From contig CAMDQO010000003.1 of assembly GCA_945906105.1 (NCBI GenBank), positions 62,001-126,000 of the forward strand: DNA of 64,000 bases. Direction: 5' to 3'. Below the pieces are notes generated by a model, which did no database searches, was not told the DNA's origin, and saw only the letters and a program-made list of their open reading frames with translations. Both the position numbers and the translations under genes were made by a program. Below, piece after piece: positions 18,563-56,109 of this stretch. This DNA comes from Novosphingobium sp. Chol11 (GTDB lineage Bacteria; Pseudomonadota; Alphaproteobacteria; Sphingomonadales; Sphingomonadaceae). Within the stretch, counting starts at the first letter, position 1. Every line of letters begins with the position of its first letter.

Positions 18563-19708
18563 TCAGTCCAGCCTGCCATAGGCCGACATATCGAACGGAT
18601 TGAACGGCTCACCCCGACGGGCTTTGCCGATCCAGTCAGCATCCATCAGTGCGGCGCGGCCGATTGCTACCAGATCGAATTCACCAGCAGCAAAGCGGCG
18701 CGCCACTTCGCCCAGATTATCAACCGATGCAGTCGGTTCCATGAATGAGCTTTGCAGATCCTTGTCAAAGCCAATGCCGCCGACGGTCATCACCGGTTTG
18801 CCGGTCAACTTACGGATCCAGCCAGACAGGCCCATGTCTGAACCTTCGAAGGCAGGGGCATCAAAATGCCGGGTCGAAACATCGAAGATATCAACGCCAG
18901 CATCGGCCAGAGCGCCGGTAATCATGGCCAGTTCTTCCGGCGTTTCCGCCAGCTTGGCATCATAATCCTGCAACTTCCATTGCGAGAAACGATAGATGAT
19001 CGGCTTGTCGGCAGGAATCACCCGGCGGACTGCCCGCACCACTTCGCGCGCCAGCCGGGTGCGCCGCAGCAGATCACCGCCCCACTGGTCGCTGCGGAGG
19101 TTGGTCTCTCCCCACAGGAAGCTGTCGAGCAGATAACCATGCGCGCCGTGGAGCGCGATGGCATCAAAGCCCAATTCATGAGCCAGGGCTGCGCTTCGAG
19201 CGAAACCGGCAATGATATCGGCAATATCGGCATCGCTTGCCGGAACGCCTGGCGCTTTCACCGCTTCCAGATAGTCCGGTGGCACCATCGCCTTGTCCAG
19301 CGGCCCCCAGATGCCCGACGGACTGATCGAGGGTGCCTCGGGATGCAGACCCGTGCCAGCAAGTCGGATCGGCCCCATGTGCCATAGCTGCGGCGCGATC
19401 TTGCCGCCTGCCGCGTGGACGGCATCGACCACGGTCTTCCAACTGGCCAGCGCCGCCTCTCCGTACATTACCGGCAACGCCGGACCGCCGGTGGTGCCAT
19501 CGCCCAGAGCGGCTGGATGATCCGGGCCGACGCCTTCGGTGATGACCAGGCCCATGTGTGCGCGGCGGGAATAGTACCCGGCAGCACCCGACAAAGGCAC
19601 CCCGTCCGGGCTGAAATTTCGCGTCATCGGTGACATGACAAAGCGGTTCGCCGTGGTGAGCGATCCACAAGTGAAGGGCGTAAACAGGGGTTCCAGCTCT
19701 TGTCGCAT
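18563..19708 (-). CDS. Old Yellow Enzyme-family NADH:flavin oxidoreductase
   Basis: This 381-residue FMN TIM-barrel protein has QLWHMG, the substrate motif HGAHGYLLDSFLWGETNLRS and a C-terminal FMN phosphate site (VAIGRAALMD). The usual Tyr of the RxDxYGG loop is Trp here (RSDQWGG). These enzymes reduce the C=C bond of enones, a common step for cyclic terpenoid or steroid ketones. The ATG at 19708 is chosen because GAGG lies 5 bases upstream; a TTG at 19723 is the alternative. The gene is divergent from the globin gene, with a FixK/Fnr box in the shared region. Confidence 0.9.
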   Translation of the reverse strand: MRQELEPLFTPFTCGSLTTANRFVMSPMTRNFSPDGVPLSGAAGYYSRRAHMGLVITEGVGPDHPAALGDGTTGGPALPVMYGEAALASWKTVVDAVHAAGGKIAPQLWHMGPIRLAGTGLHPEAPSISPSGIWGPLDKAMVPPDYLEAVKAPGVPASDADIADIIAGFARSAALAHELGFDAIALHGAHGYLLDSFLWGETNLRSDQWGGDLLRRTRLAREVVRAVRRVIPADKPIIYRFSQWKLQDYDAKLAETPEELAMITGALADAGVDIFDVSTRHFDAPAFEGSDMGLSGWIRKLTGKPVMTVGGIGFDKDLQSSFMEPTASVDNLGEVARRFAAGEFDLVAIGRAALMDADWIGKARRGEPFNPFDMSAYGRLD

Positions 19709-19820
19709 TGTGTCCTCGCGCAAATCCGATCTGCCACATCGTCGCGATTACGAGCACCATGACCTTCCGCAAGACAGGGGAACGCGACTTGCCCGGAGTC
19801 AAAAGAACCTGCGCAGATAC

Positions 19821-19834
19821 TTGATCTCGATCAA
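19821..19834. promoter_or_regulatory. FixK/Fnr-type box TTGATCTCGATCAA
   Basis: A perfect TTGATC-N2-GATCAA palindrome, 53 bp upstream of the globin ATG (19888) and 113 bp upstream of the Old Yellow Enzyme start. It matches the consensus of alphaproteobacterial FixK/FnrL and Anr regulators. Two other perfect copies occur at 28622 and 55620. Confidence 0.75.
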
Positions 19835-19887
19835 GCCCGCGCCACCGTAGCGCGATAATCATCGCGGGCAGGAGCAGGGGAGATGGC

Positions 19888-20316
19888 ATGGCTGAACTGA
19901 CTGAGATTATCGCTGCAGATAGGTTGGGAGAAATCCTCGAACAGTCTCTTTATGCGGTGGCTGAAGCGGGGGAAGATATCACCCCGCATTTTTTTGAGCG
20001 CTTTTTTGCCCTGCACCCCGATCAGCAGGCGATGTTCTTCCAGCCAACGGTTTCGTGCGGCGCGATGGTCAACGAGATCCTCGAAAGCCTTATTGCCCTC
20101 GCCGCCAACGAAGGGTGGGTCAGCACTTCGATCCACAATCTGGTCATCGCCCATCGCTGCTATGGCAACTTTCCGCTGCCACTCTATGCAGAATTACTCG
20201 ACCTGTTTATCGAGACGCTAGCCGACCTTGCAGGTGATCGCTGGTCAGCCGAATTTGAGGCGGCTTGGCGGCAGACGACCGCTGAACTCTATACGCTGAT
20301 CGCCCACGCGCACTGA
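19888..20316 (+). CDS. single-domain bacterial globin
   Basis: This 142-residue protein has a globin helix pattern. The E-F region has TSIHNLVIAHRCYGNFPLPLY with His89 as the likely proximal (F8) ligand, followed by LLDLFIETLADLAGDRWSAEFEAAWRQ, the G-H helices of bacterial haemoglobins. No reductase domain is fused. Possible roles are O2 supply to the oxygenases, NO removal or sensing. A perfect FixK/Fnr box lies 53 bp upstream, supporting low-oxygen or NO control. The gene converges on the ferredoxin gene with a 3-bp gap. Confidence 0.8.
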   Translation: MAELTEIIAADRLGEILEQSLYAVAEAGEDITPHFFERFFALHPDQQAMFFQPTVSCGAMVNEILESLIALAANEGWVSTSIHNLVIAHRCYGNFPLPLYAELLDLFIETLADLAGDRWSAEFEAAWRQTTAELYTLIAHAH

Positions 20317-20319
20317 ACT

Positions 20320-20532
20320 TTAGGCAGGCACAACCTTGAGCGCCGATTGCGGGCAGGCATCTGCCCCTTCGCGCGCCAGATCTTCCATGCCTTCGGGCAC
20401 GATCTCATCATCGACATAGACGATGCCGTTTTCATCCAGCTTGTAAACGTCCGGACAGATTTCCGCACAGACACCATAGCCGCAACAGGCCGGCTTGTTG
20501 ATCACTACCTTGAGCTTGCCCTGACCGGACAT
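20320..20532 (-). CDS. [3Fe-4S]-type ferredoxin
   Basis: This 70-residue ferredoxin has C16-x2-Tyr19-x2-C22-x3-C26-P and a distal C60-P (ADACPQSAL). The replacement of one cluster Cys by Tyr is the C-x2-X-x2-C pattern of [3Fe-4S] or labile [4Fe-4S] ferredoxins that serve P450s. It is divergent from the first Rieske operon, sharing a 111-bp promoter region. It is the only ferredoxin gene in the window, so it is the likely electron carrier from the reductase at 22641 to the Rieske and P450 enzymes. Confidence 0.9.
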   Translation of the reverse strand: MSGQGKLKVVINKPACCGYGVCAEICPDVYKLDENGIVYVDDEIVPEGMEDLAREGADACPQSALKVVPA

Positions 20533-20578
20533 GGTTTACTCCTCTCACCCACTCGATGAATCGCAACTTACACCTTGA

Positions 20579-20598
20579 ACATATTTCATTCAATATGT
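20579..20598. promoter_or_regulatory. inverted repeat ACATATT-N6-AATATGT, candidate operator
   Basis: Perfect 7-bp arms centred between the divergent ferredoxin and Rieske alpha genes, 46 bp before the Rieske ATG. A plausible target is the TetR regulator encoded in the same operon (24628-25248). Confidence 0.5.
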
Positions 20599-20643
20599 AT
20601 AACGCGAATCAACGAGAAAAAACTACCTGAGGAGAAGATCATC

Positions 20644-22032
20644 ATGCTGAAGCAAGCAAGCCTGGTCCTGCGCGACGGAACCACCCTCGACGATCTGATT
20701 ATGCAAGACACCAACGAGGTGTCGCTCCGGGTGATGACCGACGAAGAGCTCTACGGCCATGAAATGGAGCGTATCTTCGCCAAGACCTGGCTTTTGCTGG
20801 GGCATGAGAGCGAGATCCCCAAGTCCGGCGATTTCATCGTCCGCGATATGGCTGAAGATAATGTCATCATTGCCCGCGATCGCGAAGGCGGCGTCAACGT
20901 CTCGCTGAACGTCTGTCCGCATCGCGGCATGCGGGTCTGCCTGGGCGAAGCCGGCAACAAGCCGATCCATCAGTGCATCTACCACGGCTGGGCTTTCAAG
21001 CCGAACGGCGACTTCATCGGCGCGCCAGTTGAGCGTGAGAGCATGCACGGCAACAATGTCGACAAGGCGACGCTGGGCCTGAAGAAGGCGCGCGTTCACC
21101 TCTATGGCGGGCTGATATTCGCTACCTGGAATATCGAAGGTCCATCATTCGATGACTATCTGGGCGACATCAAATATTACATGGACCAGCTGTTCTGCCG
21201 CACCGACAACGGGCTGGAACTGCTCGGCCCGCCGCAGCGTTTTGTCCTGCCCTGCAATTGGAAAGTGCCGGGCGAACAGTCTGGCTCTGACGGCTTCCAC
21301 ACCCTCACCCTGCACCGCAGCCTAATGGAAGGCGGCGTGATGGGCGGCACGGCTGAGACGATCTACGATCAGGCTCCCGGCATGTACGGCGTCGATGTCT
21401 CCTGCGAACAGGGCCATTCGCTGCGCTGCCTTGAAGCGGAAAAGACCTTCAAGATGTTTGCGGACATCCCTTTTGAAGGCAAATCAACCGAAGAGCGGCT
21501 GAACCTCCTGACCCCGCCGGGCATCACCAAGGAGATGATCCCGGAGCTGTTCAAGAATCTGTCCGAAGATCAGGTCGAACAGCTTGCAACTTTTCCGCCG
21601 CAGGTTGGCGGCATGTTCCCCAACATCCTGATCGCCTTCATCTTTGCTCCGCGCACGGATGGCGGATCATCGGGCGCGCTGGCGCTGCACACTTACGTGC
21701 CGAGAGGCCCGAACCATGTCGAGTTCGTCAACTTCATCTTTGCCGAGAAGGACGCACCCGAACAGATGAAGCGCGATATGCTGCAGAACTCGGTCCAGCA
21801 GACCGGCACTTCGGGCACCATCGAGCAGGATGATGCCGACGTCTGGCCAGTGATCATGCGCAACGCGCGCGGCGGTGTGAGCAAGCACATGACTCTGAAA
21901 TATCAGGCATTGCACGGCCATGAACGGCCCGAAGGCTGGAAGGGCGGCGGCTTGCTCTATCCTGGCTTCACCAAGGACGACACCCAGTGGAACTGGTGGA
22001 TGGCCTATCACAAGCTGATGAGCGAATCCTGA
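20644..22032 (+). CDS. Rieske ring-hydroxylating oxygenase, alpha subunit (copy 1)
   Basis: This 462-residue protein has Rieske ligands C91-x-H93-x17-C111-x2-H114 (NVCPHRGM and CIYHGWAF), the bridging Asp216 and iron ligands His219 and His224 in DGFHTLTLH, and a late Asp in EQDDADVWP. It inserts O2 into an aromatic or olefinic ring or hydroxylates a nearby carbon. ATG 20644 has GAGGAG upstream. It is followed at once by its beta subunit and a ferredoxin reductase. It is clearly similar to copy 2 at 30004 along the whole length. Substrate not determinable; terpenoid/resin acid dioxygenases are a possible parallel. Confidence 0.95.
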   Translation: MLKQASLVLRDGTTLDDLIMQDTNEVSLRVMTDEELYGHEMERIFAKTWLLLGHESEIPKSGDFIVRDMAEDNVIIARDREGGVNVSLNVCPHRGMRVCLGEAGNKPIHQCIYHGWAFKPNGDFIGAPVERESMHGNNVDKATLGLKKARVHLYGGLIFATWNIEGPSFDDYLGDIKYYMDQLFCRTDNGLELLGPPQRFVLPCNWKVPGEQSGSDGFHTLTLHRSLMEGGVMGGTAETIYDQAPGMYGVDVSCEQGHSLRCLEAEKTFKMFADIPFEGKSTEERLNLLTPPGITKEMIPELFKNLSEDQVEQLATFPPQVGGMFPNILIAFIFAPRTDGGSSGALALHTYVPRGPNHVEFVNFIFAEKDAPEQMKRDMLQNSVQQTGTSGTIEQDDADVWPVIMRNARGGVSKHMTLKYQALHGHERPEGWKGGGLLYPGFTKDDTQWNWWMAYHKLMSES

Positions 22033-22053
22033 GAAACGCCGGAGGATATCGAA

Positions 22054-22635
22054 ATGACCTGGGTTACCAAATCAACCGCCGCTCCTGATTCCACCACCAT
22101 CCTGCGCGGGCTTTCCTCGCGGCGGCGGGTGCCAGTCGGCTCGGAAGTGTACAATCGCCTGCTCGAAACGCTCTACGACGAAGCCGCTGTGCTCGATGAG
22201 CGCCGGTTCGATGACTGGATCGCCATGCTGTCTCCCGATCTGGTCTATCAGGCTCCGATCCGCCTGACCCGCACCGGAGCGAACAAGGACCGCGACGTGA
22301 TGCGGACCATGTTCCATTTCGATGATGATTACACCTCGATCATGATGCGCATGGGCCGCTTGCAGAAGAGCGCATGGGCAGAAGATCCGCCATCGCGCTG
22401 CCGCCGCTTCGTCACCAATGTCCGAGTGGGTGAGTGCGATACGCCAGGCGACTATGAGGTTGTCAGCTATCTGTTTCTGGAACGCAGCCGCGGCGACAAC
22501 CCGCATAATGAAACGCTGACTGCCGAACGCCGCGATATCTGGCGTGAGCAGGATGGCGCTTATGTCCTCGCCAAGCGCGAGATCATTGTCGACCAATCAG
22601 TGCTCGGCATGTCCAACCTCGCGATCTTCCTCTGA
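22054..22635 (+). CDS. Rieske oxygenase beta subunit (copy 1)
   Basis: This 193-residue protein has the cone fold of ring-hydroxylating oxygenase small subunits: YNRLLETLYDEAAVLDERRFDDW at the N-terminus, a RCRRFVTNVRVGE strand, and a C-terminus VDQSVLGMSNLAIFL typical of the family. GGAGG precedes the ATG. It forms an alpha3beta3 complex with the subunit encoded 21 bp upstream; the small subunit is mainly structural. Confidence 0.93.
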   Translation: MTWVTKSTAAPDSTTILRGLSSRRRVPVGSEVYNRLLETLYDEAAVLDERRFDDWIAMLSPDLVYQAPIRLTRTGANKDRDVMRTMFHFDDDYTSIMMRMGRLQKSAWAEDPPSRCRRFVTNVRVGECDTPGDYEVVSYLFLERSRGDNPHNETLTAERRDIWREQDGAYVLAKREIIVDQSVLGMSNLAIFL

Positions 22636-22640
22636 GTCTG

Positions 22641-23819
22641 ATGGCCAGCGCGTCTCCACCATCGATAGTCGTGGTTGGCAGCGGGCTGGCCGGATTTGGC
22701 GTGCTACGCGAACTGCGCAAGCTTTCGCCAGATGCCAAGCTGACCCTGGTGACGCTGGAAGACGGGCATTTCTATTCTAAGCCAGCCCTCTCAACCGCGC
22801 TGGCCAAGGGCAAGACAGCTGAAACGCTGATCACCTCTAATGCCGAAAAGATGGCCGGACAGCTGAAACTGGATGCCCGCACCGGACGCGAGGCGGAGGC
22901 CATCGACCGGGCTGGCAAAGCACTGCTCACCACGGGCGGGCCAGTGCCTTATGATGCGCTGGTGCTGGCGACAGGGGCTCTGCCCGTCCGTCCGCCGATT
23001 GAGGGGGACGCCGCGCATCGGGCTATCGCGGTTAACCAGCTTGATCACTATGCCCGGCTTCGCACGGAGATGCCTGACGGGGCACGGGTGCTGATAATGG
23101 GTTCGGGGCTGGTTGGCACCGAATTCGCCAATGACCTGATCTCCACCGGCTACCGCCCGGTGGTGGTCGATATGCTGCCATTGCCGCTGGCGCAACTGGT
23201 GCCTCCCGCCGTGGGCGAGAAGGTGCGTGATGCGCTGAGCGCTCAAGGAGTCGAATGGCATCTGGGCCGCAGGATCACAGCGATAAACTACAAGGGCGAT
23301 GTGCCCGGCTATGTTGCTACTCTCGATGATGGCACACTGATCGAGGCCGATCTGGTGCTCTCCGCCGTTGGCCTGCGCCCCAATGTAGCACTGGCGGAAG
23401 AAGCAGGGCTGGACATTGGCAGCGGGATTGGCGGCGGCATCAAGGTCAACGAATTTGGCCAGACCAGCGATCCGCATATCTTCGCGATTGGTGACTGCGC
23501 CGAGTATCAACACGGCCTTTCCGCCTATGTTACACCGATCATGGCGGCGGCGCGCGGGATCGCGCCCTCGGCGCTGGGCACGCCCACCGCAATCCGCTTC
23601 CCGCCGCTATCAGTGCAGGTGAAGACCACACTGCTGCCGATCAACCTGCTGCCGCCACCCCGCGCTCTGCAAGGCGAATGGCGCACTGTGGAAGACGATG
23701 CGCAAGGGTCAAAACACGTGTTCGTCGGCAGCGACGGGATCGTTCGCGGCTATGTGCTGACACAGGACAAGTGCGAACAACGCATGGAAATGGACGCTAA
23801 AGTGGGAGAGAGTGCATGA
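22641..23819 (+). CDS. FAD-dependent ferredoxin/rubredoxin-type reductase
   Basis: This 392-residue protein has two dinucleotide sites: VVVGSGLAGFGVLRELRKL for FAD and IMGSGLVGTEFANDL for NAD(P)H, plus the late FAD motif IFAIGDCAEY. The DGHFYSKPALSTAL segment is like rubredoxin reductases (AlkT/RubB group). No fused [2Fe-2S] domain is present. It starts 5 bp after the beta subunit and overlaps the SDR start (ATGA). As the only such reductase in the window, it likely feeds the [3Fe-4S] ferredoxin used by both Rieske systems and the P450s. Confidence 0.9.
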   Translation: MASASPPSIVVVGSGLAGFGVLRELRKLSPDAKLTLVTLEDGHFYSKPALSTALAKGKTAETLITSNAEKMAGQLKLDARTGREAEAIDRAGKALLTTGGPVPYDALVLATGALPVRPPIEGDAAHRAIAVNQLDHYARLRTEMPDGARVLIMGSGLVGTEFANDLISTGYRPVVVDMLPLPLAQLVPPAVGEKVRDALSAQGVEWHLGRRITAINYKGDVPGYVATLDDGTLIEADLVLSAVGLRPNVALAEEAGLDIGSGIGGGIKVNEFGQTSDPHIFAIGDCAEYQHGLSAYVTPIMAAARGIAPSALGTPTAIRFPPLSVQVKTTLLPINLLPPPRALQGEWRTVEDDAQGSKHVFVGSDGIVRGYVLTQDKCEQRMEMDAKVGESA

Positions 23820-24631
23820 GCCGTTTGCTTGAGGGCAAGGTCGCTATCGTAACTGGCGGAGCCAAAGGCCTTGGTCATGGCATATCGCGTGCCCTTGCCA
23901 AAGAAGGAGCATCGCTGCTTATCAGCGGGCGCGACGGCGCTGCGACTGCAGCTGTCGCGGCGGAAATTGAGCGTGATTTTGGCACGAAGGCCATCGGCAT
24001 TGCTGCGGATTCAGGTGTCAAAGAAGACGTTCTGGCAATGGTGCAGCAAACGGTTGAGGCTTTTGGCGGCATCGATATTCTCGTCAATAACGCGTCGTTG
24101 CTGTCAGCGGGTGTCTTGCTTGAACATAAGACAGACGAAATGCTGCGCCGGACGCTTGAAATAGGCATTTGGGGCAATTGGTGGGCGATGCAGGCTGTGT
24201 TTCCACATATGAAGGCGCGCGGCGGCGGCTCTGTTGTCAACTTCAGCTCGATTGATGCGCAAACCGGCGCTTGGCTACACAGCGATTATAATATCAACAA
24301 ATTGGGTATCGTTGGCCTGACACGAAGCGCTGCGGTGGAATGGGGGCGTTATAACATCCGCGTCAATGCAATCGCACCAACGGGGTTAGGCCAAGTTTTT
24401 GCGCAGCTTGTCAAAGACGTTCCCGGCTTCCTCGAAAACGTCGTGGCAACCAACCCGCTAAAACGCGCCGGAGACCCTGAAAAGGATATCGGCCCGGTCG
24501 TCGTTTTCCTCGCTTCGGAAATGTCGCGCTTCATGACGGGCGAGATGATCAACGTCGATGGCGGGCAGAATTTGCCGGGCTACGTCAGCATCCCGCACAA
24601 TCTCGAAGAGCTGGAAAAGGGCGCCGTATGA
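23816..24631 (+). CDS. short-chain dehydrogenase/reductase
   Basis: The protein has 271 residues with GGAKGLG, NNAS, active-site Ser in FSSIDAQ, YNINK as Tyr-x3-Lys, and TGEMINVDGG near the C-terminus. It overlaps both neighbours by 4 bases (reductase before, TetR after). Position after the Rieske oxygenase suggests a cis-dihydrodiol or ring-alcohol dehydrogenase role. Local base use is slightly more A/T-rich than in the genes around it, a possible sign of separate origin. Confidence 0.88.
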   Translation: MSRLLEGKVAIVTGGAKGLGHGISRALAKEGASLLISGRDGAATAAVAAEIERDFGTKAIGIAADSGVKEDVLAMVQQTVEAFGGIDILVNNASLLSAGVLLEHKTDEMLRRTLEIGIWGNWWAMQAVFPHMKARGGGSVVNFSSIDAQTGAWLHSDYNINKLGIVGLTRSAAVEWGRYNIRVNAIAPTGLGQVFAQLVKDVPGFLENVVATNPLKRAGDPEKDIGPVVVFLASEMSRFMTGEMINVDGGQNLPGYVSIPHNLEELEKGAV

Positions 24632-25248
24632 GCTCTGTCGCAGTCCAGATGGAAGCAGAATCCACCCCCGAAGTTGAACTTTCGCCGAGCGTTATCCGTA
24701 TCATGAGCGGCGCTCTCGATGCGATTGCGGCGCGCGGTGTGAAGCGTCTGTCGATGAGCGACATCATAGATGCCAGCGGTGTTTCGCGCGGCACACTCTA
24801 CCGCTATTTCTCCAACAAGGACGAGGTGCTGTCTGCCGTCGCGGAATTTGTCTGCACCGGCTTCGAAAACGGCATTCGCGAAGCTGGCAAAGGCATTGAA
24901 GACCCGATCCTGCGGCTGAAAGCGGTAATGCAGTTCTACGCCCGCTACACCGATGAGAACTCCCCCGGCCGCGTTTTTGAGGTGGAACCAGCGTTCCATC
25001 TCGCCTTCTTCCGCAGTCGCTTTTCGCGTTACAAGCAAGCCGTGCTCGACGCGCTTGAACCGACATTTGACTACCTCGACAATCTGCTGGGCGAGCCAAT
25101 GAACCGGGATGGCTTCGTCGAAGGGCTGGTGAGAAACCAGCTCAGCACGCTGCTGATTCCTGCCAGCGAGCAATGGAAACAACTTTGGAATGACACGGCA
25201 GACAACATCCAGAAATGGGCGTTGGCGATTGCCACCTCGCGAAATTGA
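24628..25248 (+). CDS. TetR-family transcriptional regulator
   Basis: This 206-residue protein has an N-terminal helix-turn-helix (RLSMSDIIDASGVSRGTLYRYFSNKDEVL) and an all-helical ligand domain. It is embedded in the Rieske operon with ATGA coupling to the SDR. It probably autoregulates by binding an inverted repeat such as 20579-20598 or 28664-28687 and releasing on binding a pathway intermediate. The target assignment is inference. Confidence 0.9.
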   Translation: MSSVAVQMEAESTPEVELSPSVIRIMSGALDAIAARGVKRLSMSDIIDASGVSRGTLYRYFSNKDEVLSAVAEFVCTGFENGIREAGKGIEDPILRLKAVMQFYARYTDENSPGRVFEVEPAFHLAFFRSRFSRYKQAVLDALEPTFDYLDNLLGEPMNRDGFVEGLVRNQLSTLLIPASEQWKQLWNDTADNIQKWALAIATSRN

Positions 25249-25267
25249 GCAGGAAAGGAACATAATT

Positions 25268-26494
25268 ATGGCTACTGCCTCGATAAACGAAGCTCCCGAT
25301 TTCTCCACCTATGCCGACAAGGCAACAGCGGATGCATTGGTGGCGCGGGCGAAGGAACTGCGCCCGTTCCTGATGGCCGAAGCGCCCGAAGGCGAAAAGC
25401 GGCGCAATCCGACGCCTGCGGTCGATAAGATGCTGAAGGACGAAGGCTTCCTGCGCATGTTGTTGCCCAAGCGACTGGGCGGCTTCGGACTTTCGCCCAC
25501 CGACCTGTGCCGCGTCCAGATGGAAATCGCCAAAGGCGATCCGTCGATCAGCTGGGTGGTGCAGATCGTCAACGGCACCAGTTGGATCACCAGCCTTGCG
25601 CCCGACGGAGTGCAGGATGCCGTTTTCGCTAATGGCCCTGCCGCAGTGTGTGGCGCCTACAACCCGCCGGGCAAGGCGCGCAAGGTTGATGGCGGCTGGA
25701 TCATCAATGGCGCATGGCCATATACCTCTGGCTCGCGGCAATCGACCTGGGCGCAGCAAGGCGTCGTGCTGGAAGGCTATGAAGGTCCGATCGTTCCCGG
25801 AATCAGCATGTGCTATATTCCCTTCACTGACCTGACGATAGTCGATACCTGGTATGTCACGGGAATGCAGGGAACTGGTTCGGATACCAGCGTCGCAAAG
25901 GATGTGTTCATTCCCGATGCTCAGATGGTGCTGATGGATGAGCGCGCCGGACAAATTGATCGAACCAAGCGGCACTTCGGTGCGCCGTCCGACCTGCTGC
26001 CAGCCATTCCGGTCGTTCGCACAACCGGCATCGCCCAGTTACTCGGCGCGGTCGAGGCAATGCTGGAAATTGTCCAGGCCGAAGCCCCCAAGAAGCCCGT
26101 CCTTACCACCACGATCATGCCGCGCACCAACTCTGGTTCCTATATGCGCGATCTGGGTGAAACGGCAGCCACTATCGAAACGGCCAAGTTGATTCTGTTC
26201 AACCTGACCGGTGAACTGGATGCGGTTGGCTATGGCGCTGAACTTACTCTGGAAGCCAAGGCCCGAGGCCGGGGCCAGTGCGGAAAGTTGATCGAATTGA
26301 TCCATCAGGCCAGCGAATCTCTGATGTTTCAGGCCGGATCGTCAGCATTCGCGCTCGACAAGCCGATCAGCCGTTACTGGAAAGACGTTTCGATGGGCCT
26401 GCGTCATATCCAGAACATTCCGACCATCGGTTATGAAATCTATGGCCGTAATATCGCCGGAGCAGACCCGATCTCGCCGCCCGGAGCCTATTGA
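25268..26494 (+). CDS. acyl-CoA dehydrogenase-fold flavin monooxygenase (copy 1)
   Basis: This 408-residue protein has the two-component flavin monooxygenase pattern of the HsaA/HpaB C2/DszC group: LLPKRLGGFGLSPTDLCRVQMEIAKGDPSISWVV, a WPYTSGSRQSTWA core segment, TGSDTSVAKDVFIPD and a helical C-terminus. These enzymes hydroxylate aromatic or heteroaromatic compounds with FMNH2 supplied by a partner reductase, which is not obvious here. ATG 25268 follows AGGAAAGGA. It resembles the gene at 28732. The 3' end overlaps the convergent DLH-family gene by 7 bases. Confidence 0.85.
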   Translation: MATASINEAPDFSTYADKATADALVARAKELRPFLMAEAPEGEKRRNPTPAVDKMLKDEGFLRMLLPKRLGGFGLSPTDLCRVQMEIAKGDPSISWVVQIVNGTSWITSLAPDGVQDAVFANGPAAVCGAYNPPGKARKVDGGWIINGAWPYTSGSRQSTWAQQGVVLEGYEGPIVPGISMCYIPFTDLTIVDTWYVTGMQGTGSDTSVAKDVFIPDAQMVLMDERAGQIDRTKRHFGAPSDLLPAIPVVRTTGIAQLLGAVEAMLEIVQAEAPKKPVLTTTIMPRTNSGSYMRDLGETAATIETAKLILFNLTGELDAVGYGAELTLEAKARGRGQCGKLIELIHQASESLMFQAGSSAFALDKPISRYWKDVSMGLRHIQNIPTIGYEIYGRNIAGADPISPPGAY

Positions 26495-27294
26495 TCGGCG
26501 ATCAGGCGCGCACGAAAGAAGGCAAGTATTTCGTCGCGCGCCTGAACCGTCGGTTGACCGACCTCATCGATCAGGTGCAGCGTAACCACAGAGTGCGGCA
26601 TCTTGAGCGGCGCATCGGGATTTGCGGCTGAATCGGGCAGGACTGTGCCGATGAACCGGTCGCCCAATGCCTCGCGATAGGCGGCGAACCGCTCTGCGCG
26701 GCAGAAACTGTCGCCTTCGAATCGATAGGCGAGCACGGTCAGGTCCTCGGCTTGCATCCTTTCCTTGACCGCTGCCAGTTCATCGGGATCGATGGCCAGC
26801 CCCGCAGGATTGTGCATCGGCATGGAGGGCTGCGACATCACCGGCGCAATAACCGACTTCTCCAGCATCATCGACAGCGCGAAATTGCCGGTAAAGCACA
26901 TGCCGATCGCGCCGACGCCCTTACCACCGCATTCCTTGTGTGCCTGAGCAGCCAGTGCGCGAAGCCACTGCGTTACCGGGCTTGAGGCATTGCTGGCGAA
27001 GGCACGAAATTCCTTGCTGATGCAGGCGCGCGCCAGTGTGATCATCGCCTTGCCGTTGCCCGGCAACACCCCATCTTCACCAAACAGCGACGGCATATAG
27101 ACCGTCAGCCCTGCATCACGCACCCAGCGGGCAAACCGCGCAACATAGGGGCTGATTCCGGGAATCTCCGACATGACGATCACCGCCGGACCGCTTCCCG
27201 AAACATAGACGCGCTTGGTCTTGCCCAGCAAAGTCACCTGACGCTTTTCGAAATCGTCGAGACTGTCCCTGAAATTCGGATCGATATCAGCCAT
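26488..27294 (-). CDS. dienelactone hydrolase family protein
   Basis: This 268-residue alpha/beta hydrolase has the Cys nucleophile in GAIGMCFTGNFAL, as in dienelactone hydrolases, and SVVTLHLIDEVG near the C-terminus, where the catalytic His is expected. The ATG overlaps the P450 stop by one base (TGATG), so the pair forms a leftward operon. DLH-type enzymes open lactones or enol-lactones, which could follow a ring oxygenation. The nearest functional parallel cannot be fixed. Confidence 0.85.
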   Translation of the reverse strand: MADIDPNFRDSLDDFEKRQVTLLGKTKRVYVSGSGPAVIVMSEIPGISPYVARFARWVRDAGLTVYMPSLFGEDGVLPGNGKAMITLARACISKEFRAFASNASSPVTQWLRALAAQAHKECGGKGVGAIGMCFTGNFALSMMLEKSVIAPVMSQPSMPMHNPAGLAIDPDELAAVKERMQAEDLTVLAYRFEGDSFCRAERFAAYREALGDRFIGTVLPDSAANPDAPLKMPHSVVTLHLIDEVGQPTVQARDEILAFFRARLIADQ

Positions 27295-28511
27295 CACCAC
27301 ACCAGCGGCAGTTTATCAGGCTGAAGGATGCCGCCAGTGTGCGTCTTGACAACATAGCCATCCTGAATGCGGAACGGCGGAATTGCCTTCAGAAATTCCT
27401 CCAGCGCAATCCGCATCTCGCGCCGTGCCAGATGCATCCCGACGCACAGATGCGGCCCGTAACCGAAGCTGAGATAGCGCGATTTGCGGCCCAGTTTGAC
27501 CACATCGGGATCGTCATAGGCATCGGGATCATGGCCCGCGAGGCAAGTTGCCAGCGCCACCTTGTCACCCGGCTGGAAAGTCACGCCATTGATTGTCACT
27601 TCGTTCTTGCAGGTGCGGAAAGTGGTGACCGCCGGATAGGCGCGCATCATCTCTTCTATGGCATCCATGATCATCTCGGGATTGGCGCGCAGCGTGGCCT
27701 GATCTTCAGGATGGGTTGCCAAGTGCCGGAACTGCCAGGCCATGTTGGTGGAGACAGTGTCCATGCCGCCGATGAACAGGTTGAAGGTGAAGCCCACCAG
27801 TTCATCATCGGTCAGCGGACGACCTTCGATCTCGGCAGTAACGCCATAGGAGATCAGATCGCTGCCGGGATTGGCCTTCCGGTCGGCAATCTGTTCGCGC
27901 AGGTATGTCACGACCTTGCGTGTGCTGGCCGCGATTTTGCCAAGGTCATTGGTGTGCAGCAGGTCCATTTCCCATTCGAGGAAGGTGGCGACCATGGTCT
28001 GCGGCAGGCCCATCAGTTCAAGGAACACCTTGATGGGAAATTCAAAGGCGAAATCATGGACGAATTCGCATGATCCCTTGGCCTTTATCGCCGCACAATA
28101 ATCCTGAGCATATTGCCTGATCTTGCCGTCCAGCTTGTTGATTTCCTTGGGCGTGAACAGCGGGTTGACGAACTTGCGATAAAGCCCGTGCATCGGCGGA
28201 TCGGTTTCCGCCGGAAGCGAACTCCATGTCTCACCCACCAGCATGGCGAAGGGCGCGAAATCCTTGTTCGAAAAATTGTCGGTGTCGAAGTAGATCGTTT
28301 CCAGATCCTCTACCCGCCGCACGATCCAGCTTGGCGTGCCGCCCGGATAGGCATCGAGCGAATAAAACACCGGCGGCATGGTGCGGTGAATATGCGGAAT
28401 GGTCGTCAGAAACGGGTTTTCGTCGACCAGAGCGCCCATCTTGATCGGATAGTCCAGCACCAGTTCCCTGGGAACATGAGGCGGAGCTTCAGTCACTTGT
28501 GCGCCCAGCAT
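27294..28511 (-). CDS. cytochrome P450, P450cam-like
   Basis: The protein has 405 residues with the same P450cam-type landmarks as the P450s at 8224 and 32015: HVPRELVLDYP, FPIKVFLELMGLP, I-helix GGMDTVSTN, EMMR, the heme loop FGYGPHLCVGMHLARREM with Cys356, and a PDKLPLVW end. It heads a leftward operon with a DLH-family hydrolase and is divergent from the second oxygenase operon across a 220-bp regulatory region. The close paralogy of three P450s suggests duplication and split specificity on related substrates. Confidence 0.93.
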   Translation of the reverse strand: MLGAQVTEAPPHVPRELVLDYPIKMGALVDENPFLTTIPHIHRTMPPVFYSLDAYPGGTPSWIVRRVEDLETIYFDTDNFSNKDFAPFAMLVGETWSSLPAETDPPMHGLYRKFVNPLFTPKEINKLDGKIRQYAQDYCAAIKAKGSCEFVHDFAFEFPIKVFLELMGLPQTMVATFLEWEMDLLHTNDLGKIAASTRKVVTYLREQIADRKANPGSDLISYGVTAEIEGRPLTDDELVGFTFNLFIGGMDTVSTNMAWQFRHLATHPEDQATLRANPEMIMDAIEEMMRAYPAVTTFRTCKNEVTINGVTFQPGDKVALATCLAGHDPDAYDDPDVVKLGRKSRYLSFGYGPHLCVGMHLARREMRIALEEFLKAIPPFRIQDGYVVKTHTGGILQPDKLPLVW

Positions 28512-28621
28512 CGGAATTCTCCGTCATATGTTTTATCGCGATTCAGCGGCTAACAACCCAGGCGATTTTGATACCTGCTGAAGGATAGGTCGACCGAATA
28601 TAACAAGGCGGTTGGCCCTAT

Positions 28622-28635
28622 TTGATCTGGATCAA
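28622..28635. promoter_or_regulatory. FixK/Fnr-type box TTGATCTGGATCAA
   Basis: A perfect TTGATC-N2-GATCAA palindrome in the divergent region between the P450 (28511, minus) and the flavin monooxygenase (28732, plus). It lies 97 bp before the latter. Confidence 0.75.
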
Positions 28636-28663: not shown

Positions 28664-28687
28664 ATACACATTAGACATTTTGTGTAT
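28664..28687. promoter_or_regulatory. inverted repeat ATACACA-N10-TGTGTAT, candidate operator
   Basis: Perfect 7-bp arms, 45 bp before the flavin monooxygenase ATG and close to the FixK/Fnr box. A TetR- or LysR-type site is plausible; the arms differ from the repeat at 20579. Confidence 0.45.
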
Positions 28688-28731: not shown

Positions 28732-29967
28732 ATGGCCACGCAACTTAAAGCGGCTGGGATTGAGCAGACTTGCGGGTACAATCTGCAAGCCGAAAAAGAG
28801 ATGGTCGGCCGCGCGCGTGAGTTGCAACCGCTGCTCCGCCAACATGCCTCGCACGGCGATGAGCATGGCGTACTCCATCCCGATGTCTTCGCCGCGCTGA
28901 CCGATGCCGGCTTCTGGGCCATGGCAGCCCCCCGCCGCTGGGGCGGCCTTGGCACCAGTGCCCGCGCCATGTCGCTGGTCGGCTATGAACTGGCCAAGGC
29001 CGATCCTTCCGTAGGCTGGGTCTATACCGTGTTGCACGGCACCACCTGGGTCGCCAGCCTTGGGCCAGACGCGCTTCAGGAAGCCATTTTCGGATCGAGC
29101 AGCGAGCACCCGGTGATCTGCGGCATCGCCAACCCTCCCGGCACGATGGTCGAGGTGGACGGCGGCTACATCGTCAACGGTCGCTGGCCCTATGCCTCGG
29201 GCTCGGCTCATGCCTCCTGGGCGCAGCTGGGCGTGGCCACGGTGGACAAGGACGGAAACCACGGCGGCGGCTTCGCCTATCTGCGGGCTGAGCAATATTC
29301 CATCGACAACACCTGGCACATGATGGGGATGAAGGGCACCGGCTCCAACACCATCGTCGCCAAGGACGTGTTCATTCCCAAGGAGCAGTTCTACAATGTC
29401 GCAGAGCTGGGCATTGGCGGACACGAGCCTGGCAAGCGTCATGTGGGCGAGCCCTCGGATTTCTGGCCGTTCATGCCGTTCCTGCGCGCCACCGCTCACG
29501 CCGTGGTTGCCGGTGCCGCCTCGGCCATCATGGAGCGGGTCATGGAAGCCTCGCACAAGCGGCCCATCGTTTACACCTCCTATGCCCGCCAATCGGAAGC
29601 GGTGATGATGCAGGGTGAACTCGGCAAGGCTGCCGCAAAGATTTCCGCCGCTGAAGCGCTGACCTTCAAGAATTGTGATCTGATTGACAATGCCGGCCTC
29701 GCGCATGAGCGGCTTACCCCGCAGCAGCGAGCACTGAGCAAGGGCGAAGGCTCTTTGGCCGTCAGCCTGCTCAACGAAGCCATCGAGGAGTTGATGTTCC
29801 TTGCCGGATCAAGTGCCTACGCCGATTCCAACCCGATACAGCGGCTTTACCGTGACGCCTCTTTCGCCATGCGTCACGTCGCGAACCTGCCTTACGTCGG
29901 CTACGAAATTCTCGGCAAATCGCTGCTCGGTATCGAACCCAATATCGCCCTTCCCGATTTCATCTGA
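28732..29967 (+). CDS. acyl-CoA dehydrogenase-fold flavin monooxygenase (copy 2)
   Basis: The 411-residue protein follows the same pattern as the gene at 25268: MAAPRRWGGLGTSARAMSLV, a GTTWVASLGPDALQEAIF segment, WPYASGSAHASWA, TGSNTIVAKDVFIPKE and a helical C-terminal domain with LMFLAGSSAYADSNPIQR. It is predicted to be an FMNH2-dependent hydroxylase of the HsaA/DszC type. It is the first gene of an operon with Rieske alpha/beta and a P450, downstream of a FixK/Fnr box and an inverted repeat. Confidence 0.85.
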   Translation: MATQLKAAGIEQTCGYNLQAEKEMVGRARELQPLLRQHASHGDEHGVLHPDVFAALTDAGFWAMAAPRRWGGLGTSARAMSLVGYELAKADPSVGWVYTVLHGTTWVASLGPDALQEAIFGSSSEHPVICGIANPPGTMVEVDGGYIVNGRWPYASGSAHASWAQLGVATVDKDGNHGGGFAYLRAEQYSIDNTWHMMGMKGTGSNTIVAKDVFIPKEQFYNVAELGIGGHEPGKRHVGEPSDFWPFMPFLRATAHAVVAGAASAIMERVMEASHKRPIVYTSYARQSEAVMMQGELGKAAAKISAAEALTFKNCDLIDNAGLAHERLTPQQRALSKGEGSLAVSLLNEAIEELMFLAGSSAYADSNPIQRLYRDASFAMRHVANLPYVGYEILGKSLLGIEPNIALPDFI

Positions 29968-30003
29968 CCCCCAAAAACCAGAACTCAAGAGAGGAGACAG
30001 GCC

Positions 30004-31383
30004 ATGCGTCTCAATTCACGCAAGGAATACGCCAACGAAGCGATCTCGCAGTTCATCGACATCGAGAATCGCGAAGTATCGGTCGCCGCGCTGCACGATG
30101 CCGAGCTATACGAACTCGAACTGGAACGAATCTTCGCCAAGGCCTGGCTGATGATCGGCCATGAGACCGAAATCCCCAATGTGGGTGATTATGTCGTGCG
30201 GCTGATGGGCGAGGATCAGGTGATCGTTGCCCGCGCGGCCGACGGTCAGGTTCACGTTTCGCTCAACGTCTGTCCGCACCGGGCGATGCACGTCTGCCTG
30301 GCGGACAGCGGCAATGCCCGTGTCCACAAGTGCATCTATCACGGCTGGGCCTTCCGCCCCGACGGCAGCTTCATCGGCGCACCGATCGAGCGCGAGCAGA
30401 TGCACGGCAATATCAAGACCAAGGATCAGCTCGGCCTGAAAAAGGCCCGCGTCCAGCTTTACGGCGGTCTGGTGTTCGCCACCTGGAACCATGACGGCCC
30501 GTCACTCGATGACTGGTTCGGCGACATGAAGTTCTATTACGACATGCTGTTCTGCCGCACTGACAACGGACTCGAAGTGCTCGGCCCCCCGCAGCGCCTG
30601 ACCATCGACGCCAACTGGAAGACAGCGGGCGAGCAATCCGCCTGCGATGGTTTCCACACGCTCACCCTGCATGGCTCGGTGATCGATATCGGTGCAATGG
30701 GCGGCGAGAGCGATACCGAGCATGAAAGCGCGCCCGCCATGTATGGTATCAACCTTTCGGGCAACGGCCATTCGCTGCGCTGCATCGCCGCCGACACCAG
30801 CTGGGCGCTGGCGCATGGCAAGGGCGATCTGACGCCCGAACAACGCCTCGAAGCCTTCCCGCCCCCCGGCATCACGCCCGAACTGCTGCCCGAAGTTAAG
30901 CGCAACATGAGCGCAGAGCAACTCCATGTGCTGGCCAAGGCTCCGCCGGTGGTGGGCGGCATGTTCCCCAACATGAACATCCTTTTCATCTACAGCCCGC
31001 TGCGCGACGGCACTCTGGGATCGGCGCTGGTGCTCCATTCGATCATGCCCAAGGGGCCGGACCATTTTGAATGGACGACCTATTACTTTGCCGAAAAGGG
31101 CACGCCCGAACATATCAAGGTGATGATGCGCGCCTCAGCCACGCTTGGCACCGGCACGTCGGGTATCATCGAGCAGGATGACAGCGACACCTGGCCGCAC
31201 ATGACCGAGAGCGCCAAGGGCGTGATTGGCCGCACCGAAACGCTAAAGTATCAAGCCATCCTTGGCGAAAACCGTCCGTCTGACTGGCCTAACAAGGCCA
31301 AGGTCTATGAAGGCTTCGGCAAGGACGATGCGCAGTGGGAGTGGTGGCTGGCCTATCACAAGCTGATGACCGCCGACGCCTGA
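30004..31383 (+). CDS. Rieske ring-hydroxylating oxygenase, alpha subunit (copy 2)
   Basis: This 459-residue protein has Rieske ligands C90-x-H92 and C110-x2-H113 (NVCPHRAM, CIYHGWAF) and the catalytic segment DGFHTLTLH. The late Asp lies in EQDDSDTWP. An AGAGAGGAG ribosome-binding site precedes the ATG. It is a close paralog of the alpha subunit at 20644; most differences are in the C-terminal substrate domain, where copy 2 has IDIGAMGGESDTEHESAP. No separate reductase or ferredoxin gene follows, so it must share those of copy 1 or use an unlinked pair. Confidence 0.95.
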   Translation: MRLNSRKEYANEAISQFIDIENREVSVAALHDAELYELELERIFAKAWLMIGHETEIPNVGDYVVRLMGEDQVIVARAADGQVHVSLNVCPHRAMHVCLADSGNARVHKCIYHGWAFRPDGSFIGAPIEREQMHGNIKTKDQLGLKKARVQLYGGLVFATWNHDGPSLDDWFGDMKFYYDMLFCRTDNGLEVLGPPQRLTIDANWKTAGEQSACDGFHTLTLHGSVIDIGAMGGESDTEHESAPAMYGINLSGNGHSLRCIAADTSWALAHGKGDLTPEQRLEAFPPPGITPELLPEVKRNMSAEQLHVLAKAPPVVGGMFPNMNILFIYSPLRDGTLGSALVLHSIMPKGPDHFEWTTYYFAEKGTPEHIKVMMRASATLGTGTSGIIEQDDSDTWPHMTESAKGVIGRTETLKYQAILGENRPSDWPNKAKVYEGFGKDDAQWEWWLAYHKLMTADA

Positions 31384-31418
31384 GCCCTTTCACCGCATTC
31401 CGAAAAAGGACCACAATC

Positions 31419-31985: not shown

Positions 31986-32014
31986 TTGCATATTTCTGCT
32001 GAGAGGAAGTTCCC

Positions 32015-33235: not shown

Positions 33236-33352
33236 GCGGAACTAAACAACCCGCTTTACAGTGGTAAAACGATCATACCTTCAGACAGGTTCTCTAGGCG
33301 TCTAGACTGCCCATCAACGATAACAGACACAAAATGCGACGGAGCCTGAAAC

Positions 33353-53903: not shown

Positions 53904-55544
53904 TCAGGCAGCTTGCAGCATTCGGGCGAGATCCTCGTTCGCGTCTCCGGTCGGGCGGATATCGAACTTCTCGATCAGCACACCAAGCACTTCGGGGGTG
54001 AGGAACTGCGGCAGCGTTGGCCCGAGGTGGATCTTGCGAATGCCGAGGTGCAACATGGACAGCAGCACGGCGGTAGCCTTTTGCTCAAACCAGCTGATGG
54101 CATAGTGCAGCGGCAGATCATTGACCCCGCAACCCAGCGCTCCGGCAACGGCAGTCGCAATCTGGATGGCCGAGTAGGCATCGTTGCACTGGCCAACGTC
54201 AAGCACCCGCGGGATGCCATTGATGTCGCCCATATCCTCGCGGTTGAAGCGGAACTTGCCGCAACCCAGTGTGAGCACAAGGCTATCCTTCGGCGTCGCC
54301 ATGGCGAGATCGTGGAAGTAGTTGCGGCCTGGCCGTGCGCCATCACAGCCACCGATCAGGAACAGGTTCTTGACCTCGCCCTTGCCGATCATGCCGAGCA
54401 GGGTATCGGCCACGCCCATCACCGTATTGCGGCCAAAGCCTGCGGGGATGGTTTCTTCTACCGCGTCCTCGGCAAAGCCCGGCTGAGCCAGCGCGCATTC
54501 GATAACTGCGGAGAAGTCGTCGTGTTGGATGTGCGGGATACCATGCCAGCCGACCGGTCCAGCGGTGAACAGGCGATCAGCATAGCCCTTGATCTCGGGA
54601 TTGATCAGACAGTTCGAAGTCATGATAATCGCGCCGGGGAATGCATCGAAGTCGTTATGCTGGTCCTGCCAGGCACCACCATAATTGCCGACGAGGTGCT
54701 TGAACTTCTTGAGGCCGGGATAGGTGTTGGCCGGAAGCAGTTCACCGTGGGTGTAAACGTTGATGCCCTTGCCTTCGGTCTGGTGAAGCGCGGCCATCAT
54801 GTCGCCAAGGTCATGACCGGAAACGAGGATGCACTTGCCCGCCTTGGGCGTCATGCGCACATGGGTGATCTCGGGATGGCCGAAACGCCCGGTGTTAGCC
54901 GCGTCGAGCATCTCCATGACCTTGAAGTTGAGTCCGCCAACCGCCAGCGATTCTGCGACCAACGCATCGATATCGGTCGGATCGGCGGCGAGGAAGGCGG
55001 AGATACGGTGAAACTCGGCGTTTACGGCGGTTTCTTCGGTCCCCAGCACACGGGCGTGCTCACTGTAGGCGGCGGTGCCTTTCAGGCCATACAGGATCAG
55101 ATTGCGCAGGCCGACGATTGAGGGACCATCGCGATCCATGAAGCGCTGGACTGCCGCATATGGCGCAGCTTCAACGTAATCGTTCGACGTGTGGCCGGGA
55201 TCCCAGATCGCGGGTTCGGGCAAGTCAGTCAAATCTGCCCCGGCACGTTCGGCAAGACCCTTCGCCGTGGCGCGAATATCAAGCGCGCGGCCAATCAGTT
55301 GGGTGAAACGGCTGCGGTCAAAATTGACGTTGGTCAGCGTGGTGAACCATGCGTGCGGCGTGAAGGCATCAACTTCGGCATCGTGCGCACCCACTCGCGC
55401 GGCACGGTCTGCATAAACGGAAACGCCCAGCATGATGCGCAGCAGCACGTCCTGCTTGTTCGCCACGGCCTCGGTCTTGCCGCATGACCCGACCTTGACG
55501 GCACAGCCGCCTTTGTTGCTTTGTTCGCACTGCACGCAATACAT
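53904..55544 (-). CDS. hcp: hybrid-cluster protein (hydroxylamine/NO reductase)
   Basis: The 546-residue protein has an N-terminal cluster set CVQCEQSN...C...C (C3, C6, C14, C21) and, later, the hybrid-cluster ligands in GHDLGD, TSNCLINP, GCDG and LGCGKFRF. Hcp is a high-affinity NO or hydroxylamine reductase of the nitrosative stress response. It is divergent from nsrR, with an NsrR-like site and a perfect FixK/Fnr box in the shared region, so control by NO and low oxygen is likely. No separate Hcr reductase gene is adjacent. Confidence 0.96.
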   Translation of the reverse strand: MYCVQCEQSNKGGCAVKVGSCGKTEAVANKQDVLLRIMLGVSVYADRAARVGAHDAEVDAFTPHAWFTTLTNVNFDRSRFTQLIGRALDIRATAKGLAERAGADLTDLPEPAIWDPGHTSNDYVEAAPYAAVQRFMDRDGPSIVGLRNLILYGLKGTAAYSEHARVLGTEETAVNAEFHRISAFLAADPTDIDALVAESLAVGGLNFKVMEMLDAANTGRFGHPEITHVRMTPKAGKCILVSGHDLGDMMAALHQTEGKGINVYTHGELLPANTYPGLKKFKHLVGNYGGAWQDQHNDFDAFPGAIIMTSNCLINPEIKGYADRLFTAGPVGWHGIPHIQHDDFSAVIECALAQPGFAEDAVEETIPAGFGRNTVMGVADTLLGMIGKGEVKNLFLIGGCDGARPGRNYFHDLAMATPKDSLVLTLGCGKFRFNREDMGDINGIPRVLDVGQCNDAYSAIQIATAVAGALGCGVNDLPLHYAISWFEQKATAVLLSMLHLGIRKIHLGPTLPQFLTPEVLGVLIEKFDIRPTGDANEDLARMLQAA

Positions 55545-55573: not shown

Positions 55574-55596
55574 AAGATGAATTTAGAATTCCACTT
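55574..55596. promoter_or_regulatory. candidate NsrR operator
   Basis: AAGATGAATTT followed after one base by GAATTCCACTT. The first half matches 10 of 11 and the second 7 of 11 bases of the NsrR consensus AAGATGCATTT-N-AAATGCATCTT. It lies 30 bp before the hcp ATG. Confidence 0.6.
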
Positions 55597-55619: not shown

Positions 55620-55633
55620 TTGATCTTGATCAA
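55620..55633. promoter_or_regulatory. FixK/Fnr-type box TTGATCTTGATCAA
   Basis: A perfect TTGATC-N2-GATCAA palindrome between hcp (55544, minus) and nsrR (55699, plus), about 75 bp before hcp. hcp is a typical Fnr-family target. Confidence 0.8.
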
Positions 55634-55698
55634 CCTTCTTCGCAGCGATGTGCATCATTTTACGTGCAACGCTTCCCATCCCGGAAATTGATCTCGTC

Positions 55699-56109
55699 AT
55701 GCAACTGACCCGCCACACCGATTATGCGCTGCGCCTGCTGATCGCTTTGGCGACTGCCGATAGTGTTCGGCTATCGGTCGCTGAAGTGGCTGAAGAGCAG
55801 AAAATTTCGCGCACGCACCTGCTAAAAATCGCCAATGCTCTGGCGCACGCCGGGTTCATCAAAGCGGTGCGCGGACGCGGCGGTGGTGTGCAACTCGCGC
55901 GCGTGGCAAGCGAAATCAATCTCGGCGCTGTAATTCAGGCGAGCGAGCCAGAGTGCTGCATGATTGATTGCACGGCCTGCAAATTGATCCGGAGCTGCAG
56001 TCTTCCGAGGGTTCTGGATGAGGCAAAGGCAGCGTTTCAGTCAGTGCTGGCGAAATATTCACTGGCCGATATTGTCAGCAAAGGGTTGCCTCAAAGTCAG
56101 GCAAACTGA
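55699..56109 (+). CDS. nsrR: Rrf2-family NO-sensing repressor NsrR
   Basis: The 136-residue protein has an N-terminal winged helix (MQLTRHTDYALRLLIALA, ISRTHLLKIANALAHAG) and an iron-sulfur Cys group ECCMIDCTACKLIRSC matching the NsrR spacing. The cluster reacts with NO and releases DNA. ATG 55699 begins the family-standard MQLTRHTDYALR. Divergent from hcp, its most common target. Confidence 0.93.
   Translation: MQLTRHTDYALRLLIALATADSVRLSVAEVAEEQKISRTHLLKIANALAHAGFIKAVRGRGGGVQLARVASEINLGAVIQASEPECCMIDCTACKLIRSCSLPRVLDEAKAAFQSVLAKYSLADIVSKGLPQSQAN

Follow-up and report, generated by a model that had tools for sequence, protein, structure and literature searches.

In a 64,000-nucleotide stretch of the Novosphingobium sp. 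Chol11 genome (contig CAMDQO010000003.1, positions 62,001 to 126,000; hereafter the window), two palindromic FnrL-type boxes lie in divergent promoter regions of an aerobic catabolic cluster, one before a single-domain globin gene and the other before an operon headed by an HsaA-like flavin monooxygenase gene. Both are very likely functional Crp/Fnr-type sites, are most likely those of an FnrL-type protein encoded in the same genome, and most likely serve activation at low oxygen. We consider it probable that FnrL binds both boxes and activates the globin gene together with the HsaA-like/Rieske/P450 operon when oxygen runs low. From sequence comparison we infer the binding, the activation and its direction, the oxygen response, the use of the globin and the supply of oxygen to the oxygenases.

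An earlier, sequence-only reading of the window had reported two exact TTGATC-N2-GATCAA palindromes in divergent promoter regions and a third before hcp/nsrR, and a motif search bears this out: exact matches to TTGATCNNGATCAA occur at 19821-19834, 28622-28635 and 55620-55633, all outside accepted genes, with only mechanical antisense open reading frames (ORFs) overlapping 19821. With up to two mismatches the window holds 10 matches, compared with a mean of 2.63 after shuffling, and none of 100 shuffles reaches 10. The chance expectation of 0.004 per 64 kb given in that reading was too low, because TTGATC and GATCAA are common in this genome; counting the strict half-sites at spacings N0 to N30 across its 3.0 Mb raises the figure to about 0.02. 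They occur at 33 places, 4 at N2 and 29 at the other 30 spacings, which corresponds to 0.97 expected per genome or 0.021 per 64 kb. Three strict sites per window are far above chance (Poisson probability of at least three, 1.4e-6), and all 4 strict N2 sites sit on the contig of the window (C3). The genome-wide scan suggested earlier yields these 4 strict sites and 12 loose ones (TTGAT-N4-ATCAA). A reversed-pattern control gave 0 matches and is not used as evidence, its TAG words possibly being rare in this genome.

The two catabolic boxes look like genuine FnrL sites because matching sites hold the same places in related species. A scan of named genomes of the family identified close relatives of the globin at three loci (87, 84 and 60% identity), belonging to Novosphingobium sp. 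MW5 and two Sphingomonadaceae metagenome-assembled genomes; these three genomes carry the handles G199, G200 and G201. All three keep the gene order Old Yellow Enzyme-globin-Rieske, and all three have an orthologue of the HsaA-like gene (96, 94 and 79% identity). At the globin, G199 and G200 (loci L076 and L077) have the exact box, and G201 (L078), the most divergent genome, has TTGATCTGCGTCAA. At the HsaA-like gene the box starts 110 bases upstream of the ATG in each of the four, again exact in G199 and G200 and reading TTGACCTGAATCAA in G201. Both G201 variants fit the Fnr consensus of Sphingopyxis granuli TFA, and the sphingomonad consensus TTGAY-N4-RTCAA is present at both promoters in 4/4 genomes. 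When all four genomes are aligned, no other 14-base window of either promoter is as well conserved as the box: at the globin gene (1 of 152 windows) 11/14 positions are invariant compared with 30/151 outside the box, and at the HsaA-like gene (1 of 202) 12/14 compared with 56/201. The inverted repeat at 28664-28687 is largely retained in G199 and G200 and decayed in G201.

Regulation of this kind presupposes an Fnr homologue in the genome, and an FnrL-type gene is present. Three proteins of the Crp-type helix-turn-helix family score above cut-off, with a fourth match below it. One of them combines Crp/Fnr domains with four cysteines (C4, C7, C15 and C103), the third displaced by two relative to the E. 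coli Fnr spacing, and with an E--SR recognition helix, ETVSR; its gene lies some 5 kb away from the ompW/ccoN cluster. The cysteine rule applied here is that of PMC7713065. The four cysteines are kept in all seven FnrL sequences compared, our own and those of six other genomes, one partial sequence being offset by one. Each of the 6 other genomes queried has an FnrL-type match, at 71-84% identity in five and at 47% in G049, a genome of another genus.

The boxes also mark a promoter set that is shared between species. Searching the TFA Fnr consensus in the four genomes gave 26 sites in our genome and 20, 19 and 13 in G199, G200 and G201, grouped as 25, 19, 18 and 12 loci since some loci hold two sites. 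Promoters were matched by a gene start within 350 bases, 40% identity, half of the shorter length and a codon-position G+C filter, cut-offs that were set once; groups resting on antisense ORFs were left out of the count. Boxes stand before the globin/Old Yellow Enzyme pair, the HsaA-like gene, ccoN/ompW and a truncated globin gene in 4/4 genomes, and the divergent P450 shares the HsaA-like box in 3/4. Three of the four also have boxes at hcp/nsrR-like, at a flavin monooxygenase (FMO-like by Pfam in our genome) and between an ArsC-like gene and a divergent, probable TonB receptor, the last two named by eye. Found in 2/4 are a second globin-like ORF/tgt, a TauD dioxygenase, a LigAB dioxygenase, a cytochrome b561-like gene (named by eye, with no NCBIfam match), feoB and a few others.

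On average, the distance from the box to a putative -10 element resembles that of activated promoters. Across 32 oriented promoters from 11 families, chosen after the fact, the A/T fraction peaks where 22 and 23 bases separate the base from the box (0.74 and 0.82), the point at which a class II -10 element would start, and the best TATAAT score falls at spacings 21-22 (1.90; mean 1.44, sd 0.27). The 14 opposite-side promoters lack a matching TATAAT peak. As an average, the spacing is consistent with an activator centred at -41.5; individual -10 elements are weak.

Taken together, the following mechanism is proposed. As oxygen falls, FnrL, an oxygen-sensing iron-sulphur member of the Crp/Fnr family, would retain its cluster; the cluster-bearing protein would bind both palindromes, recruit RNA polymerase from about -41.5, and activate the globin gene and the HsaA-like/Rieske/P450 operon (28732-34639). 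At the second promoter, the palindrome near the expected transcription start probably brings in a substrate signal, one candidate mediator being the TetR-type regulator of the cluster; a second palindrome was not seen, by eye, at the globin promoter. The outcome would be more oxygen-binding globin and more oxygen-using enzymes while oxygen is scarce, not absent.

Several observations weigh against this proposal. Anaerobic activation of enzymes that require oxygen looks paradoxical. The loose pattern is enriched only about twofold (12 sites compared with 6.05 per other spacing, P 0.02), so that single loose sites mean little and many of those elsewhere may be chance. When only the three closer genomes are aligned, 4 of 152 windows at the globin promoter and 9 of 202 at the HsaA-like promoter are equally conserved. 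None of the 25 other globin loci in 199 genomes of the family has a strict or loose site at up to one mismatch within 300 bases upstream, among them the 51%-identical globin of G049, and no box was found upstream of the 70%-identical HsaA-like homologue of G049 either; the boxes therefore belong to this locus type and not to all such genes. The regulator itself reaches 227 bits where the NCBIfam FnrL cut-off is 300, even though FnrL is its best-matching family, which is why we call it FnrL-type, and the E-x-x-SR motif recurs in two further Crp/Fnr proteins of the genome. As for the promoters, a spacing of 34 scores nearly as well for TATAAT (1.88), the opposite sides have A/T fractions of 0.50 and 0.77 at the same two positions, and a clear consensus -10 at the expected spacing is not seen in all species for either the globin or the HsaA-like promoter.

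Of the alternatives, the one with most in its favour takes the globin box as real but assigns the globin to the removal of nitric oxide (NO) linked to nitrate respiration, its place in the catabolic cluster being incidental. We regard this as possible but doubtful. NO removal is one proposed role of Vitreoscilla haemoglobin (VHb) in the sections of PMC3962134 available, and narK, hcp and the nsrR-like gene stand at other boxes of the genome; however, the Old Yellow Enzyme-globin-Rieske order is unchanged in the three further genomes with this globin. Nothing for NO sensing was found at the two catabolic boxes. The sequence-only reading had proposed tuning of the oxygenase genes and the globin by oxygen or NO through a Crp/Fnr-type regulator. 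Its NO part is not supported at these boxes. Its Crp/Fnr part is supported by the FnrL-type protein, the conserved position of both boxes in four genomes and the shared promoter set, with the restriction that only one of the two oxygenase operons has a box; tuning by oxygen is a prediction.

It is also conceivable that FnrL binds but represses, shutting off at low oxygen the oxygenases that compete with respiration for it. A repressor would suit enzymes that depend on oxygen and a box placed between divergent genes; it would also suit the P450 side of the 28622 box, where none of the three genomes compared has a -10-like hexamer at the spacing expected for -41.5. The average gene-side spacing nevertheless resembles activation, and the Fnr boxes of S. 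granuli are mostly at activating positions, its authors doubting direct repression with SGRAN_1582 as a possible exception (PMC7713065); we judge repression improbable. Slightly less probable still is use of the boxes by another Crp/Fnr regulator, for which there are two candidates: an FtrB-like protein encoded beside narK (above its NCBIfam cut-off, helix ENLSR), which would respond to nitrate or NO, and a Crp-like protein that has the same helix as FnrL, ETVSR. Two boxes do lie between narK and the FtrB-like gene in our genome. Against this stand the FnrL-type genes in 4/4 genomes and the lack of any G199, G200 or G201 box in a shared narK/FtrB promoter group, though FtrB itself was not searched for there. 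That the boxes are chance palindromes or functionless inherited sequence is very improbable: the twofold loose enrichment and the box-free G049 homologues would agree with it, but the strict sites cluster intergenically on one contig, and no other stretch of the two promoters is conserved as well in the four genomes.

The closest described parallel to activation by FnrL at these promoters is the Fnr (FnrN/FixK) regulon of S. granuli TFA, another sphingomonad, where fnr mutants defined the consensus TTGAc/t-N4-g/aTCAA, most boxes lie at -41.5, and the region separating narU from its divergent neighbour ftrB carries additional Fnr sites (PMC7713065). According to the available text, its targets include ccoN, hemN2, cybB, narU, a flavin-containing monooxygenase and an acyl-CoA dehydrogenase operon, with ompW discussed as possible (PMC7713065). 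The box consensus, ccoN (and possibly ompW), cytochrome b561 and the narU/ftrB-type arrangement all recur here; the monooxygenase and the acyl-CoA dehydrogenase operon are likened to genes of our genome by description. Unlike the present locus, Table 1 of that study contains no globin, P450 or Rieske gene, and its main text nowhere uses the words globin, haemoglobin or hemoglobin (PMC7713065). Dinoroseobacter shibae FnrL likewise uses sites of the TTGAT-N4-ATCAA type and has a cbb3 oxidase gene among its targets, fixNOQP being induced there and ccoN carrying a box here; the main text available for that study mentions one monooxygenase (crtA) and has 0 occurrences of globin, P450 or dioxygenase (PMC5398030). 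For the globin, the parallel is VHb (vgb), also a single-domain bacterial globin: in the excerpted text of PMC3962134, Fnr is among its regulators in E. coli, and it reportedly makes a dioxygenase more active. Fnr-type control, predicted here, and a link to oxygenases are common to both, whereas the oxygenase link of vgb, as that text presents it, was seen in recombinant hosts and on mixing in vitro, and here the globin and the oxygenase operons share one natural locus; the two proteins are weakly similar (profile E 0.006). Fnr control of a globin and Fnr control of a monooxygenase both have precedents, and it is their combination here that is interesting. Judged by titles and the opening parts of abstracts in the open-licence literature, none of the matches listed describes this locus or places an operon of this type under Fnr control, which is weak evidence of novelty.

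FnrL of sphingomonads could be a low-oxygen booster of aerobic catabolism, with boxes at activating positions driving oxygen-consuming enzymes (the HsaA-like/Rieske/P450 operon, flavin monooxygenase, TauD, LigAB) and up to three globin types, with local operators gating some of the promoters by substrate (so that expression takes both scarce oxygen and the substrate, an AND logic) and with the cluster globin feeding oxygen to the cluster oxygenases. We put this forward tentatively, as an idea that is rather less likely than not to hold in full. If true, a low-oxygen activator would also raise oxygen-dependent degradation under oxygen shortage, a common situation in soils, sediments and biofilms. 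It would also be a natural example of joint regulation of a bacterial globin and the oxygenases next to it, for which the literature available to us otherwise relies on recombinant VHb.

The globin at 19888..20316 has a Pfam Globin match that is narrowly above threshold (22.7 bits, cut-off 22), a proximal histidine, His89, invariant in 16/16 aligned homologues, and no reductase domain, features of a single-domain globin of the VHb/flavohaemoglobin type. Its sequence alone has no match to solved structures at E 0.01; as a profile it matches Hell's gate globin (4.5e-6), flavohaemoglobin (1e-5) and VHb (0.003-0.006). Globin folds head the Foldseek list for its AlphaFold model (predicted local distance difference test score 86), with a best E of 0.002, none below 0.001, and a template-modelling score of about 0.7. 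The truncated globin gene with a box in four genomes (L128:1078-1558, L154, L135 and L081) matches PF01152 (Bac_globin) in L128 and L081. The second globin-like ORF spans 155 amino acids (aa) and is transcribed away from tgt; in two genomes (L012:976-1514 and L159) a box precedes it by 56-57 bp. Its naming is tentative because it has no Pfam match at 0.001 and no globin among PDB matches at E 1 (our copy, on C15), shares 20% identity with the window globin (BLASTP E 6e-4) and matches the globin profile in hhalign at 88% probability; it may represent an undescribed globin family.

The layout of the cluster and of the hcp locus is given in Table 1. The globin is probably monocistronic, as the ferredoxin-like ORF on the minus strand is convergent with it. 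This ORF falls below the 100-aa limit of the ORF list. We considered that the globin box drives the downstream Rieske gene and rejected this, since the conserved ferredoxin-like ORF and a separate conserved palindrome intervene; the same two elements separate Rieske operon 1 from the globin, so that this operon has a promoter of its own and is not tied to a box, and no Fnr box was found between the ferredoxin-like ORF and the operon (around 20579-20598). The box-linked set is the operon of the HsaA-like, second Rieske and P450 genes, and possibly the divergent P450 at 27294..28511. The HsaA-like protein scores 196 bits with NCBIfam HsaA, below the equivalog cut-off of 450, and its PDB matches are XiaF and HsaA-type entries. 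Region 16227-37000 holds duplicated sets, with two Rieske alpha/beta pairs, two HsaA-like enzymes and three P450s. The palindromes at the two oxygenase operons (28664-28687 and 20579-20598) differ from each other; either may be an operator for the product of the TetR-type gene at 24628 or for another regulator.

Table 1. Features of the catabolic cluster and the hcp locus (window coordinates)
Feature	Position	Strand	Remarks
Old Yellow Enzyme family flavin oxidoreductase	18563..19723	-	Pfam Oxidored_FMN; divergent from globin
FnrL-type box TTGATCTCGATCAA	19821..19834	.	53 bp before globin ATG, 97 bp before divergent Old Yellow Enzyme ORF
Single-domain globin, 142 aa	19888..20316	+	Pfam Globin, alignment, profile, AlphaFold model
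Ferredoxin-like ORF, 70 aa	20320..20532	-	Translation and conservation in four genomes; named from Cys pattern
Palindrome ACATATT-TCATTC-AATATGT	20579..20598	.	Conserved; between ferredoxin-like ORF and Rieske operon 1
Rieske oxygenase alpha subunit, operon 1 (no box)	20644..22032	+	Pfam; ATG chosen, mechanical ORF starts 20575
TetR-family regulator	24628..25248	+	Pfam TetR_N; candidate for local operators
Cytochrome P450	27294..28511	-	Closest solved relatives CYP101 family; divergent from HsaA-like gene
FnrL-type box TTGATCTGGATCAA	28622..28635	.	96 bp to HsaA-like ATG, 110 bp to P450 ATG
Inverted repeat ATACACA-N10-TGTGTAT, 24 bases	28664..28687	.	Candidate substrate-responsive operator near expected transcription start
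HsaA/HpaB-like two-component flavin monooxygenase	28732..29967	+	First gene of oxygenase operon 2
Rieske alpha, presumed operon 2	30004-31383	+	Operon inferred from order and strand
Rieske beta, presumed operon 2	31404-31985	+	As above
P450, presumed operon 2	32015-33235	+	As above
P450, presumed operon 2	33353-34639	+	As above
hcp, hybrid-cluster protein / hydroxylamine reductase	53904..55544	-	NCBIfam, above cut-off
NsrR-like palindrome AAGATGAATTTAGAATTCCACTT	55574..55596	.	Between box and hcp
FnrL-type box TTGATCTTGATCAA	55620..55633	.	Between hcp and nsrR-like gene; same place in G199, G200
Rrf2-family regulator, NsrR-like	55648..56109	+	NCBIfam NsrR 107 bits, cut-off 182; RirA near-equal, 106

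At the third exact box, hcp may be doubly controlled, by FnrL and by an NsrR-like repressor. The hcp gene of E. coli type is controlled by FNR and NsrR, and the promoter here similarly combines an Fnr box with an NsrR-like palindrome, the nsrR-like gene being divergent from hcp across the box. The palindrome lies near the expected transcription start of hcp and has 18 of the 23 letters of the E. coli NsrR consensus, a score that 5 of 2000 random 270-base stretches of the window reach. Weaker counterparts of the AAGTG...CACTT type occur in G199 (16/23) and G200 (13/23), the random-stretch comparison having been made for 18 only. Control by NO through this separate NsrR-like operator is plausible at hcp.

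Among the other box-bearing promoters is that of the ring-cleaving LigAB dioxygenase genes (L101:241-1547 and L142), where the box precedes ligA by 71 and 59 bp (G199 and G200). At the TauD-type dioxygenase (L016:1501-2442 and L088) the box overlaps the stop codon of a preceding TetR-type ORF, and a palindrome lies near the expected start. We count 17 P450 loci in our genome, from 18 matches of which two fall in one frame; 3 of the loci have a loose box close upstream (C3:90622, C7:124569 and C17:52360); counted after the fact, this association is suggestive only. Two loose boxes occur near moa genes, one at the end of moaE and the other 51 bp ahead of a small ORF that precedes moaA (L010 and L011), neither falling into a promoter group shared with G199-G201. 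At L018:2911-5649, beside two boxes and the FtrB-like regulator, a 912-aa gene resembles two fused transporters, the second half being of the NarK/NarU type.

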